From Candidatus Blautia faecavium (GTDB lineage: Bacteria; Bacillota; Clostridia; Lachnospirales; Lachnospiraceae): a DNA stretch of 56,173 bases. Below, piece after piece: positions 4,983 to 10,356 of the stretch. Location: assembly GCA_019118425.1 (NCBI GenBank), contig DWYZ01000305.1, positions 1 to 56,173 on the forward strand, read 5' to 3'. Every line of letters starts with the position of its first letter. The first letter of the stretch is position 1. Made by a program: the position numbers and the translations under genes. Below the pieces are notes generated by a model. It made no database searches, was not told where the DNA came from, and saw only the letters and a list, made by a program, of their open reading frames with translations.

Positions 4983-5912
4983 TTATTTAATGATGGTTCC
5001 GGTTTTTTCACGGTAGCCGTCCCTGGCGTGGGGAATGTCTGTAATAATGGTGCGGCGCCCTTCCCCTTTTTCGATGAAGGAAATGCCTGCCTCAAATTTC
5101 GGAAGCATAGAGCCGGGAGCGAATTGGTTCTCGCTCATGTGCTTTTTGGCCTCCTTTACGGTGAGTTCATCCAGGAATTCTTCCTTGTCTGTGCCAAGAT
5201 TTAGACTTACTTTTTCCACGCTTGTAAGGATCAAGAGGGTATCTGCGTTTAAGGCCTCTGCCATAAAGCCGCTGGCAAGATCTTTTTCAATGATGGCGCT
5301 GGCACCGTGAAGGTCGATGCCCTGCTCCATAACAGGAATGCCGCCGCCTCCTGCGGCTATGACTACCTGGCCGGCATCTACAAGAGTGCGGATCGTTTCC
5401 AGCTCGATGATCTTCTGCGGTTTAGGAGAAGCTACGATTCTGCGGTAGCCGCCTTCCACCGGCGTTACGAAGTTCCCTTTTTCCTCCTCCATCTCCGCTT
5501 CTTCGGCAGTCAGGATACGGCCGATGATCTTTTCCGGTTCTGCAAAGGCATCATCATAAGGATCGATCACTACCTGAGTGAGAACCGTGCTCACTGGCTT
5601 ATAAATTCCCCTGGAAATAAATTCTGCCCGAATGGCATTCTGGAGATCATATCCAATGTAGCCCTGGCTCATGGCTGAGCAGACAGACATAGGGGCAAAT
5701 GTATAGTCAGGATGCGCCTTTCCGAATTCATTCATTGCGGTATGGATCATGCCTACCTGGGGGCCATTGCTGTGAGAGATGACTACGCGAGTCCCTTCCT
5801 CCACCAGATCGGCGATAGCCTTTGCGGCTTTTTTTGTGGCGATTTTCTGTTCTGGCAGGGTGGTACCTAAAGCTCTGTGACCTAGTGCAACTACTACGAT
5901 TTTTTCGCTCAT
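4983..5912 (-). CDS. arcC: Carbamate kinase
   Basis: 309 aa; VVALGHRALG, SHSNGPQVG, AAGGGGIPV, MLPKFEAGISFIE motifs. Confidence 0.93.
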   Translation of the reverse strand: MSEKIVVVALGHRALGTTLPEQKIATKKAAKAIADLVEEGTRVVISHSNGPQVGMIHTAMNEFGKAHPDYTFAPMSVCSAMSQGYIGYDLQNAIRAEFISRGIYKPVSTVLTQVVIDPYDDAFAEPEKIIGRILTAEEAEMEEEKGNFVTPVEGGYRRIVASPKPQKIIELETIRTLVDAGQVVIAAGGGGIPVMEQGIDLHGASAIIEKDLASGFMAEALNADTLLILTSVEKVSLNLGTDKEEFLDELTVKEAKKHMSENQFAPGSMLPKFEAGISFIEKGEGRRTIITDIPHARDGYREKTGTIIK

Positions 5913-6011
5913 AGGAAGTACCTCATTTCTTTTGGTTTATCTCTTTATTATAAAAGACAGATGAAGGAATTGCAATAAAAAGTGACAGGGATCGCAGGGA
6001 ATCTTATATAC

Positions 6012-6089
6012 AACAAGAAACCCCGCCTTGCTGCGGGGTTTCTCTGCTTTTTTGAGGGGGGAGATAGAGAGTGGTTATTCATCTATCCA
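6012..6089 (-). ncRNA. Candidate small RNA, copy 1 (C-rich region plus terminator)
   Basis: Minus strand: TATAAT (6096-6101), then GGATAGATGAATAACCACTCTCTATCTCCCCCCTCAAAAAA, then AAACCCCGC-AGCAAG-GCGGGGTTT-CTTGTTG terminator; near-identical second copy ~300 bp away. Confidence 0.5.
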
Positions 6090-6159
6090 AGACCTATTAT
6101 AGCGAAGAAATGTGAGCAAAGTGTGTCGAGTTTCTGAAAGAAATCGAAAAAATATAAAG
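6016..6159. repeat. Copy 1 of a ~145-bp direct repeat
   Basis: Aligns with 6313-6457; the core TTTTTTGAGGGGGGAGATAGAGAGTGGTTATTCATCTATCC is identical in both. Confidence 0.9.
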
Positions 6160-6167
6160 GTTTTTTA

Positions 6168-6262
6168 AATTTCGTTTCGTCTTAACCAAATTGCCTGTTG
6201 AATCATATTGGCCTGTAACCACGCATCAGGTGCGTGGTTCGGGTATGGCATGCAACTAAATT
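6168..6262 (+). repeat. Dispersed palindromic element, partial copy A
   Basis: AAATTGCCTGTTGAATCAT and AACCACGCA-TCAGG-TGCGTGGTTCGGGTATGGCATG shared with copies at 14.2 and 53.3 kb. Confidence 0.8.
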
Positions 6263-6312
6263 TTTTCTAAATAAAGAAAAAATCGGATTTTGGGAAAAAG
6301 AGATACAGACAC

Positions 6313-6387
6313 TAAGAACCCCCGCATTGCTGCGAGGGTTCCATGTTTTTTGAGGGGGGAGATAGAGAGTGGTTATTCATCTATCCG
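6313..6387 (-). ncRNA. Candidate small RNA, copy 2
   Basis: Same architecture: minus-strand TATAAT (6394-6399), identical C-rich segment, terminator AACCCTCGC-AGCAAT-GCGGGGGTT. Confidence 0.5.
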
Positions 6388-6457
6388 AAACCTATTATAG
6401 CGAAGAAATGTGTGCAAAGTATGACAGGTTTGTAAAAGAATTAGAAAAAGTATAAAG
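6313..6457. repeat. Copy 2 of the ~145-bp direct repeat
   Basis: Aligns with 6016-6159. Confidence 0.9.
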
Positions 6458-6711: not shown

Positions 6712-6757
6712 TGTCATACCCGAACCACGCATTCGCTGCGTGGTTACGGGCCAAGCT
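6712..6757 (-). repeat. Dispersed palindromic element, partial copy B (inverted)
   Basis: TTGTCATACCCGAACCACGCA-TTCGC-TGCGTGGTTACGGGCCA is the reverse complement of the hairpin-2 half of copies A and D. Confidence 0.8.
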
Positions 6758-6844: not shown

Positions 6845-8806
6845 TTGAAAAAAAGAATATGTTTAAAGGCGGGAGCCTTTTTTATGACAGGAGCTGTCAT
6901 TCTGGCCGCAGCGGCGGGAATGGAGCGTAAAGTGTATGGCGCCCAGGATACAGGAATGCTGACGCTTTCTCAAAGCGCGGCCTGGACAGAGGAAAATCAA
7001 TACAGAGCAGAGGTTACTTTGACCATTCAGGGATTAGACAGTTACTTTAAACAACAGATAAATTCTGCATCTTCCGAGGAAACGCAGCCTGTAGAGCAGA
7101 TGTCAGATACAACAGGCACATTTGTTTCACAGGACAGCCTTGGACAGTACCCTTCAGAGGAAAATCCAGATGGGAATACAGAGCCGCACAGTGCGGCAGG
7201 TTCTGCAGAAGCAACGACAGACCCTGCCGGGAGCGAGGAAGGCAGTCCCACGGACAAGCAAAACACAGAAACACAAGGAGCATACAGGCAAGACATAGAT
7301 GAGCAGGAGGCAGAAATCCAAAGTGCAGACAACCAAAGCACAGGCCCTCAAGGTGCAGACAACCAAAGCGCAGAATCCCAAGATGCAGATAATCAGAGCG
7401 CAGAAATCCAGGCCGCAGATATCCCCAATAGAGCTGTCCAATACACAGAGCAGGCCGGCGAAGGAAAAATTGACGGGGCAGAGATGTCATCGTCTCTTTC
7501 CCTGGTCTATTTTCTCTCCGAATATTTCCTTCCGGATACGCAGAAGATTCCCTCTTTCTATATTGCAGAGGAACTTACTGTTTCCAAAGAGAATGGAGAG
7601 CAGACCTCAGTTATTAAAATCACGATCCCTCTTTTGCCGAATGCTTCCTATACTGAGCCAGCAGTATATACCCTCCCTCTTTTGTTAAAAGAGGAGTTTC
7701 AGGATCTGGGCCAAGGCTGTTCCTATCCTGTAAGCCGGGAGATTTCCCTTCAGGAAGGGGATGGAGGCCAGGGAGTTTATCTCATAAGAAATACAGACTC
7801 CCAGATTCTCGCAAAGGCATCTATGACATACCTTGATGTAAAACCGGTATCTGCGGATTTTCAATTGTCTGTAAATACAGCCCCCCAAACGCCTAAGGCA
7901 GGGGAACGGCTTACCTATGAGATAGTTTTAAAAAACACAGGCGAAATCCCTCTCACCCAGATACAGCTGAAAAATAATTTTTCTCAGGGAGGCCTCACCC
8001 TTGTATGGGAACAGGCACAGGGAGTGACTATGCCGGAGAACGGGCAGGGTGCATTGCTTGATATGCTGGAAAAAGGAGAAACACGGACCTTATATGCCTT
8101 TGTGGATCTGCCGGAGAGTCAGGAAGAGACCTTTACAAATATCTTTCATATTATTTGCCAGAATCCGGCCGCGCCTCAGACGGTCCTGGAAAGACAGGCA
8201 CAGGTGGAAACAGGAGTTACTCCTTTAAAAGCAGAGTTTACTGTAGAGAAGACAGCAGACAGGACTACGGCCTTCCCTGGGGAGACCATTCGCTATCAAA
8301 TATGCATTCGAAATACAGGAGAAAAAACACTCCATTCTGTTTTAAGTACAGAAAGATTTTTATCCTCTAATATCCAGGCACAGTTTTTAGAAAAAGAAGG
8401 AGTAGAGTTAAATGCCGCGAAAAACCAGGCCCTGATCCCTCAGATCCTTCCAGGAGAAGCTTTCGCTCTGGAAGCGGCGGTCACGCTGCCTTTGAATATG
8501 GTAAGCCAGGAGCTGATCAACCAGGTGATCGTTGTGAGCCGTGAGACAGGAACCCGTTCCGTTCAGTCTCAGGCAGGAATACAGGTGCAGGCGCTTCCGT
8601 CAACACCTACGCCGACTCCATGGCTCACTCAGTATCCTGTACAGAATACACTGTATAAAAGCGGCGGCTCACTGGCCAAGCAGGCTTCTTCTTATCCTAA
8701 GACAGAGGATGAATCGCCTATAGCTTTCTGGGCTGTCACGGCGGGAGGCGCTCTTTTGGTCATGGCAGCGGCGTTTCACCTTGGGAAAGGGAAAAGGAAA
8801 CATTGA
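6845..8806 (+). CDS. Large secreted or cell-surface protein with DUF11-like repeats and a C-terminal anchor-like segment
   Basis: TTG start behind AGGAGG; signal peptide; Gln/Ser-rich repeats; two DUF11-like segments (TPKAGERLTYEIVLKNTGEIPL; AFPGETIRYQICIRNTGEKTL); PKTEDESPIAFW-TM-KGKRKH C-terminus. Confidence 0.75.
   Translation: MKKRICLKAGAFFMTGAVILAAAAGMERKVYGAQDTGMLTLSQSAAWTEENQYRAEVTLTIQGLDSYFKQQINSASSEETQPVEQMSDTTGTFVSQDSLGQYPSEENPDGNTEPHSAAGSAEATTDPAGSEEGSPTDKQNTETQGAYRQDIDEQEAEIQSADNQSTGPQGADNQSAESQDADNQSAEIQAADIPNRAVQYTEQAGEGKIDGAEMSSSLSLVYFLSEYFLPDTQKIPSFYIAEELTVSKENGEQTSVIKITIPLLPNASYTEPAVYTLPLLLKEEFQDLGQGCSYPVSREISLQEGDGGQGVYLIRNTDSQILAKASMTYLDVKPVSADFQLSVNTAPQTPKAGERLTYEIVLKNTGEIPLTQIQLKNNFSQGGLTLVWEQAQGVTMPENGQGALLDMLEKGETRTLYAFVDLPESQEETFTNIFHIICQNPAAPQTVLERQAQVETGVTPLKAEFTVEKTADRTTAFPGETIRYQICIRNTGEKTLHSVLSTERFLSSNIQAQFLEKEGVELNAAKNQALIPQILPGEAFALEAAVTLPLNMVSQELINQVIVVSRETGTRSVQSQAGIQVQALPSTPTPTPWLTQYPVQNTLYKSGGSLAKQASSYPKTEDESPIAFWAVTAGGALLVMAAAFHLGKGKRKH
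7310..7429 (+). repeat. 30-bp tandem repeats encoding xxxQxADNQS
   Basis: AEIQSADNQS / TGPQGADNQS / AESQDADNQS / AEIQAADIPN. Confidence 0.85.
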
Positions 8807-8898
8807 AATGACCGGTTAGGTGTGCTATTCTATAAAGGAATCTATACTTAATAGGAAGATTTTTGTTATTTCAGATAGATATGGAGGCTGGAGAAAAA

Positions 8899-10356
8899 AT
8901 GAAATTATCATCGCTGTTGGAACGGGTGGAATACACCTGCTGCCAGGGAAGCCTGGACCAGGAAGTGACCACAGTCACTTACGATTCCAGAAAGGCAGAA
9001 CCTGGATCGATGTTTATCTGCATACGGGGAGCTGTGGTGGACGGACATAAGTTCATTCCCGATGTGGTGGAAAAAGGAGCGAAGGTGCTTGTGGTGGAAG
9101 AAGAGACGCAGGTTCCTTCAGGCGTAACGGTCATTCGCGTAAAAGATACCCGTTATGCTATGGCGTTTATCTCCGCCGCGTATTTCGGATATCCCGCGGA
9201 AAAACTTAAGACTATAGGGATAACAGGAACGAAAGGAAAAACCACCACCACCTATATGGTAAAATCTATCCTGGAAAATGCCGGCTATAAGGTGGGGCTT
9301 ATCGGTACCATCGAGGCGATTATCGGAGACAAAGTCATTCCTGCAGCGAATACCACACCGGAATCTTTCGTGATCCAGAAATATTTCCGGGACATGGTGG
9401 ACGCTGGCTGCGATTGTGTGGTTATGGAGGTTTCCTCTCAGGGGCTGATGCTTCACCGGACCCAGGGATTTATTTTTGATTTCGGAATTTTTACCAATAT
9501 CGAACCAGATCATATAGGGCCTAATGAGCACAAGGATTTTGCCCATTACCTTGCCTGTAAGTCCTTGCTTTTAAAACAGTGCAGGGTGGGGATCGTAAAT
9601 CGTGACGATGAACATTTTGACAAGATCATAGAAGGGCATACCTGCACCCTGGAAACCTACGGGTTTTCCCCTGAGGCGGATCTGCGCGCAGAGGATGCCA
9701 AGCTGGTAAGCGGAAAAGGATATCTTGGCATTTCCTATCACTTAAAGGGACTTTTGGATTTTCCGGTGGAAATTGATATTCCTGGAAAATTCAGTATTTA
9801 TAATTCTCTGACAGCAATAGCCATCTGCCGCCATTTTAAGGTATCAGAGGATAATATTATCAAAGCCTTAAAAGTGGCCAAGGTAAAAGGCCGTATCGAA
9901 ATGGTGAAGGTATCGGATGAATTTACCCTGATGATCGACTATGCCCATAATGCCATGGCGCTGGAAAGCCTTTTGACCACTTTGAGGGAGTACCATCCTC
10001 ACAGACTGGTGTGCCTTTTTGGCTGTGGAGGCAACCGTTCCAAATACCGCCGGTATGAAATGGGCGAGGTATCCGGAAAGCTTGCGGATCTTACCATCAT
10101 CACTTCAGATAACCCCAGAGATGAAGAGCCTCAGGCTATTATAGATGATATTAAGATCGGTATCGGGAAAACAAGCGGAAAGTATGTGGAGATCATTGAC
10201 AGAAAAGAGGCTATCCGTTATGCCATAGAGCATGGCGAGCCGGGAGATATCATCATCCTTGCCGGAAAGGGTCACGAAGATTACCAGGAAATTAAAGGCA
10301 AGAAGTACCCCATGGATGAAAGGGTGCTGATTGCAGACATCCTGGCAGAAAGATAA
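8899..10356 (+). CDS. murE: UDP-N-acetylmuramyl-tripeptide synthetase (meso-DAP type)
   Basis: GITGTKGKTTTT P-loop; DNPRDEEP motif typical of meso-DAP ligases; ATG 8899 behind GGAG. Confidence 0.9.
   Translation: MKLSSLLERVEYTCCQGSLDQEVTTVTYDSRKAEPGSMFICIRGAVVDGHKFIPDVVEKGAKVLVVEEETQVPSGVTVIRVKDTRYAMAFISAAYFGYPAEKLKTIGITGTKGKTTTTYMVKSILENAGYKVGLIGTIEAIIGDKVIPAANTTPESFVIQKYFRDMVDAGCDCVVMEVSSQGLMLHRTQGFIFDFGIFTNIEPDHIGPNEHKDFAHYLACKSLLLKQCRVGIVNRDDEHFDKIIEGHTCTLETYGFSPEADLRAEDAKLVSGKGYLGISYHLKGLLDFPVEIDIPGKFSIYNSLTAIAICRHFKVSEDNIIKALKVAKVKGRIEMVKVSDEFTLMIDYAHNAMALESLLTTLREYHPHRLVCLFGCGGNRSKYRRYEMGEVSGKLADLTIITSDNPRDEEPQAIIDDIKIGIGKTSGKYVEIIDRKEAIRYAIEHGEPGDIIILAGKGHEDYQEIKGKKYPMDERVLIADILAER

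Follow-up and report, generated by a model that had tools for sequence, protein, structure and literature searches.

The question that this locus raises is whether two C-rich units, lying about 300 bp apart on the minus strand of the 56,173-nucleotide stretch of Candidatus Blautia faecavium DNA analysed here (the window), are genes in their own right and, if so, what their products might do. The original prediction had read them as a tandem pair of small RNA (sRNA) candidates, and its description of them holds: both units are there, GGATAGATGAATAACCACTCTCTATCTCCCCCCTCAAAAAA is the same in the two copies, TATAAT is found at 6399–6394 (copy A) and at 6101–6096 (copy B), and the terminator stems have diverged between the copies with pairing retained. 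In each unit (6386 to about 6313 and 6088 to about 6013) TATAAT is followed by a hairpin at the 5′ end of the RNA, then by CUCCCCCCUCAAAAAA, which stays unpaired, and last by an intrinsic terminator. The segment GGATAG...CTCCCCCCTCAAAAAA is identical between the copies, which are near-identical from 35 bp before the −10 element through the end of the A-tract. On folding, the 5′ part, GAUAGA...UCUAUC, is predicted to form a hairpin too, so that the C-rich tract lies single-stranded with a stem-loop on either side, and the two RNAs fold with z scores of −4.1 and −4.8 against shuffled sequences (0 of 200 shuffles as good). Exact matches to CTATCTCCCCCCTC in the 3.5-Mb assembly of this genome (92% complete) are confined to the two window copies.

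The promoter region of copy A (6394–6441) consists of a T-rich block, an 11-bp direct repeat, TCATACTTTGCACACATTT (6424–6406), and the −10 TATAAT, without a −35 element; a position weight matrix from whose training the window copies had been excluded scores it at 50.6 bits. That of copy B (6096–6143; T-rich block, repeat ACACACTTTGCTCACATTT at 6126–6108, TATAAT) reaches 57.8 bits, with the best other, non-sRNA site in the window at 1.9 bits. The transcribed parts match our covariance model, R1, at 6307–6386 for copy A (86.6 bits, E 2e-17; predicted transcript about 6386–6313) and at 6008–6088 for copy B (86.9 bits, E 1.8e-17; predicted transcript about 6088–6013), scores that come from a model built partly from these same copies. 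Within copy A the 5′ hairpin, HP1 (GGAUAGAUGA...UCUCUAUCU), folds at 6360–6386, the putative unpaired anti-Shine-Dalgarno (anti-SD) linker CUCCCCCCUC occupies 6352–6361 and the terminator hairpin folds at 6313–6342; the corresponding elements of copy B lie at 6062–6088, 6054–6063 and 6013–6044. An inverted pair of hairpin elements (6209–6251 and 6714–6752; CCACGCATCAGGTGCGTGG type with a CGGGTATG flank) brackets the copy A segment, possibly a small repeat element connected with how the unit was duplicated.

The units are not confined to this genome. BLASTN finds them in 46 of 64 genomes of the genus at E<1e-5, and a search with R1, which covers the transcribed part only and holds no promoter sequence, finds them across the Lachnospiraceae in 129 of 397 sampled genomes (112 of 334 genera) at E≤0.01, a figure that is a lower bound because the scan filters were strict. 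Among 392 genomes of the class four matches remain; the two that fall outside the family are weak, have no linker and were discarded as chance matches, so that the unit is essentially absent from the class outside the Lachnospiraceae. Genomes often hold two to four copies, and copies in tandem turn up repeatedly in genera unrelated to each other. A 15-mer scan of contigs returned mostly chance matches next to true Blautia copies. No Rfam family scored above its gathering threshold for the window and ten homologous loci, a lax threshold adding chance matches only, and none of the papers found among openly licensed full texts describes the family.

Across 141 distinct copies HP1 ranges from 21 to 28 nt and forms on its own in 139. 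Its pairs 2–6 are invariant in 141/141, and the hairpin is backed mostly by sequence conservation, not covariation, because these pairs never vary; at pair 7, 44 copies have A-U and 91 have U-A (paired in 135 of 141, unpaired in 6), a two-sided compensatory change. The linker reads TCCCCCCTCA(T) in the DNA, that is UCCCCCCUCA(U) in the RNA, in 120 of the 141. A long form, seen in 34 copies (among them loci L217, L218, L223, L228, L232, L238–L242 and L245–L259), runs hairpin, CUCCCCCCUCAUAAAGUA, second hairpin, ACUUUACUCUCAUUCCUUUAGAUAACUAUA, terminator hairpin; its second linker, ACUUUACUCUCAUUCCUUUAGAUAACUAUA, is conserved, and AACUAU could be a competing partner of HP1's 5′ arm. Two other Lachnospiraceae loci (L104:932–946 and L108:918–932) carry a short variant, AGATAGAGAAATTCTATCTCCCCCCTCAUAA followed by a terminator, without the repeat described below upstream; this may be another branch of the family. 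RNA gene anatomy, conservation, one compensatory pair and a free-standing placement (see below) are direct results of the computation, and we regard the units as sRNA genes with near certainty. The two in the window are a local example of a large, widespread and unnamed sRNA family without an Rfam entry.

How would such genes be switched on? The original prediction found no convincing −35 box, and the homologues bear this out: TTGACA is matched at two or fewer of its six positions in 135 of 141 promoters. Aligned on the −10 element, the 141 promoters read T-rich TTTCTTTTA, ACAYAnTTT-N2-ACACATTT, 6 bp, TATAAT, and the correlation between promoter columns peaks at a shift of 11 (0.61), with no other shift in the tested range of 5–21 exceeding 0.33. 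The missing −35 is thus explained, since an 11-bp direct repeat ends 6 bp before the −10. Direct repeats of 11-bp period that abut the core promoter are a signature of OmpR/PhoB-family activators, and the layout, judged from sequence, is that of a putative OmpR/PhoB-type response-regulator site in place of the −35. Because R1 contains no promoter sequence, conservation of the promoter in divergent copies is independent evidence for a promoter-driven gene. Control by PhoB/PhoP was considered and dropped: the pstS promoter of this genome has TTTACG-N5-TTTACA-like repeats and not the ACAYAnTTT-N2-ACACATTT box.

Placement of the units bears on two further explanations. In the window an arcC-like carbamate kinase gene (4983–5912, minus strand; gene cluster c1) lies downstream, a gene for a secreted or cell-surface protein (6845–8806, plus strand; cluster c0) is the divergent neighbour outside the unit, and a murE-like gene (8863–10356, plus strand; clusters c2/c3) follows. 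Blautia copies usually sit between a divergent secreted-protein gene and an arcC-like gene, mostly 50–260 bp upstream of the latter and in the same orientation, as would be expected of a cis-acting leader or attenuator, riboswitch-like, of a downstream gene such as arcC; some other Blautia copies precede regulator or dehydrogenase genes. In other genera, however, the next downstream gene is usually convergent (opposite in strand for 69 of 99 copies), with 60 families represented, each unit ends in a terminator of its own, and the window arcC-like gene has its own promoter-like TTGCAA-17-TATAAT, for which reason we do not count it as part of the sRNA unit. As a general explanation the leader is largely refuted, and we consider it very improbable. 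With neighbours this varied, most of them in the opposite orientation, the C-rich unit is better described as a free-standing RNA gene. With murE and recJ frequent neighbours in many other genera, the murE neighbourhood looks like the ancestral location.

An RNA antitoxin of type I, which the original prediction had also offered, or an antisense RNA to the overlapping plus-strand ORF, is more improbable still. Some type I loci typically do have tandem copies, and short plus-strand ORFs do overlap the units; no conserved toxin ORF was found opposite or beside the RNA, however, the neighbours belong to 60 families, and hairpins of 21–28 nt together with divergent terminators break the plus-strand frames, while promoter and linker are kept. 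Homologues that keep the plus-strand ORF while TATAAT and terminator decay were the pattern that, by the original prediction, would speak against small RNAs, and the outcome is the opposite one, with promoter and terminator kept.

The promoter also led beyond the C-rich family. A scan for the repeat in 10 Blautia genomes, followed by a scan of all fetched DNA with the matrix, whose training set had consisted of sRNA promoters only, turned up strong sites of three main kinds: those before the C-rich sRNA, those before members of a second sRNA-like family and those before htrA. When the best htrA homologues from 24 genomes of 13 genera were collected (loci L364–L387), all 24 of these Lachnospiraceae genomes had a site before the gene, at 13.6–32.3 bits compared with 5.1 bits for the best of 64 background loci, with the start codon 12–124 bp downstream of the −10 in every locus. 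In the genome that holds the window, the htrA site (L373, G000:C51) scores 31.4 bits, and the identity of htrA is given by Pfam PF13365 (E 2.6e-27). The shared repeat at htrA and at the second family is thus a computed result, and C-rich sRNAs and htrA very probably have a regulator in common. The gene for this regulator was not found in a search in which the sole box-bearing response-regulator operon of that genome proved not conserved: this OmpR-type response regulator–histidine kinase operon, with a similar box upstream (L410, G000:C245:1193), was rejected as the general regulator because a close orthologue occurs in only one other of 16 genomes. At about position 371312 of G001:C1 (in L456) a site of 35.1 bits precedes a hairpin CUUAAGG...CCUUAAG, a linker UCUUUCCUUUCCC and a terminator, from its sequence a possible third small RNA under the repeat.

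Homologues of the second family were found in 51 of 64 Blautia genomes, that of the window included (G000:C242:2247 and G000:C182:8398); further loci are L273/L332 (G001:C1:3476412), L267, L271, L279 and L330–L359. Behind the same tandem box they have a 5′ hairpin followed by CUUUUUCUUUUUCAUAC, and then a GCCGG hairpin followed by CUCCUUC; in 26 of 26 loci, some collected with a query that included the box and others by the 3′ part alone, the best matrix site has the tandem box, the U-rich linker following in 25 inside the segment inspected. CUUUUUCUUUUUCAUAC is complementary to AUGAAAAAGAAAAAG starts and CUCCUUC to GAAGGAG, in collinear order, which makes the U-rich family complementary to the AUG-AAA-AAG starts of secreted proteins. 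Among 956 genes of one Blautia genome, for which simple rules based on hydrophobicity and on the ribosome-binding site defined the secreted class and the gene starts, respectively, the U-rich linker is predicted to pair better with secreted-like starts (median −7.9 kcal/mol) than with others (median −5.9 kcal/mol; p 1e-14, compared with a smallest p of 4e-4 among 20 shuffled linkers).

What the C-rich RNA pairs with is a separate matter. Across eight genomes GGGGGGA followed by ATG within 2–12 nt is about 2.5 times as frequent as in the reversed control, an excess that is ordinary SD enrichment, and resemblance to an anti-SD sequence carries little weight by itself because the SD sites of any bacterium will pair with a C-rich sequence. 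Single good candidates are the pyruvate kinase gene of the genome that holds the window, with AGGGGGGA (L320), and a G041 gene with UGAGGGGGGA (predicted pairing −24 kcal/mol). By their pairing energy with the C-rich linker, secreted genes do not stand apart from the rest (p 0.30; 956 genes, one Blautia genome), and between two genomes of very close species pairing is conserved no better than for shuffled linkers (169 orthologue pairs). The best target by energy in one genome, beside an sRNA locus (G001, about 3,078,750), was set aside, as it is not conserved in the window or at other loci. These results leave some room for a stress-induced RNA that titrates an RNA-binding protein instead of pairing with mRNAs, a role that would suit a near-invariant short single-stranded tract, the invariance of HP1 pairs 2–6 and the fact that the comparison of two close genomes yielded no conserved target. 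Against it, the linker ends in CUCA(U), its flanks resemble those of known anti-SD sRNAs, and the linkers of the co-regulated second family are complementary to start sites, so that we hold titration to be unlikely. That the C-rich RNAs act mainly by covering SD sequences is the view we lean towards, with some reserve.

Known systems offer several precedents for an anti-SD sRNA of this kind. Streptococcal csRNAs, under CiaR direct-repeat control and with an unpaired anti-SD stretch between two stem-loops (PMC3091779), are likewise multicopy and activated through a direct repeat of 11-bp period just upstream of the −10; they differ in host (streptococci versus Lachnospiraceae), in their unrelated sequences and in the CiaR box, TTTAAG-N5-TTTAAG, which is absent here, the consensus of the 141 promoters being that given above. 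Listeria monocytogenes LhrC1-5, controlled by LisRK and carrying UCCC motifs (PMC4132741), resemble the C-rich family in being multicopy and CU-rich with UCCC, and respond to envelope stress through a two-component system, but have three CU-rich sites and a LisR responsive element further upstream. RoxS/RsaE, under ResD/SrrA (SrrAB/ResDE) (PMC4409812), has C-rich regions that pair with SD sequences and is under response-regulator control, as predicted for the C-rich family, but has several CCCC/CCCCUUUGUU regions and is conserved in Bacilli/staphylococci; as for LhrC, there is no Rfam match to it here. In Bacillus subtilis htrA is under CssR, with the canonical box TTTTCACA (PMC6749698), and shares with the present case a regulator box with a TCACA core, but TTTTCACA as such is missing from the window copies, the exact octamer occurs only in some second-family copies, and the CssRS literature searched holds no comparable sRNA. 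The C-rich family appears to repeat the csRNA/LhrC design, an anti-SD RNA in several copies under envelope-stress control, in a distant lineage with unrelated sequence, which suggests convergent evolution. Streptococcal CiaR controls htrA as well as the csRNAs.

We therefore favor the csRNA-like reading of the original prediction, which the conserved promoter, hairpin, linker, terminator and free-standing placement uphold and in which pairing with SD targets is inferred. Each copy would be a free-standing gene for a trans-acting sRNA of about 75 nt, transcribed from a sigma-A promoter without a −35 that an OmpR/PhoB-family response regulator would activate on the 11-bp direct repeat, and two or more near-identical copies would raise the dosage. 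The unpaired CUCCCCCCUC(AU) linker would pair with the G-rich SD of mRNAs and block translation initiation. The same regulator would drive htrA, which makes secretion or cell-envelope stress the most likely signal (CssR/CiaR/LisR-like logic). On our best reading, then, these are sRNAs of an envelope- or secretion-stress response that would work in the manner of streptococcal csRNAs or Listeria LhrC, and to the whole model, a response-regulator-driven stress sRNA with an anti-SD linker that blocks translation, we assign a probability of roughly 0.7. A wider proposal is tentative and, in our estimate, has the odds somewhat against it: htrA and several start-site-covering sRNA families might form a Lachnospiraceae secretion-stress regulon, in which the C-rich RNAs cover SD sequences and the U-rich RNAs read lysine-rich signal-peptide starts, switching off the secretome as a class.

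The literature searched describes no sRNA regulator of the anti-SD, response-regulator kind in Lachnospiraceae, which are dominant human gut bacteria. The C-rich unit is a new sRNA family of known design whose unexpected link to the control of htrA is well supported, and its recurrence across the Lachnospiraceae under the control sequence of htrA makes it an RNA family and not a curiosity of one genome. Because the regulatory site is shared with htrA, the C-rich family is tied to secretion stress, and the U-rich family would allow a direct test of whether an sRNA recognizes secreted proteins by their signal-peptide codons.
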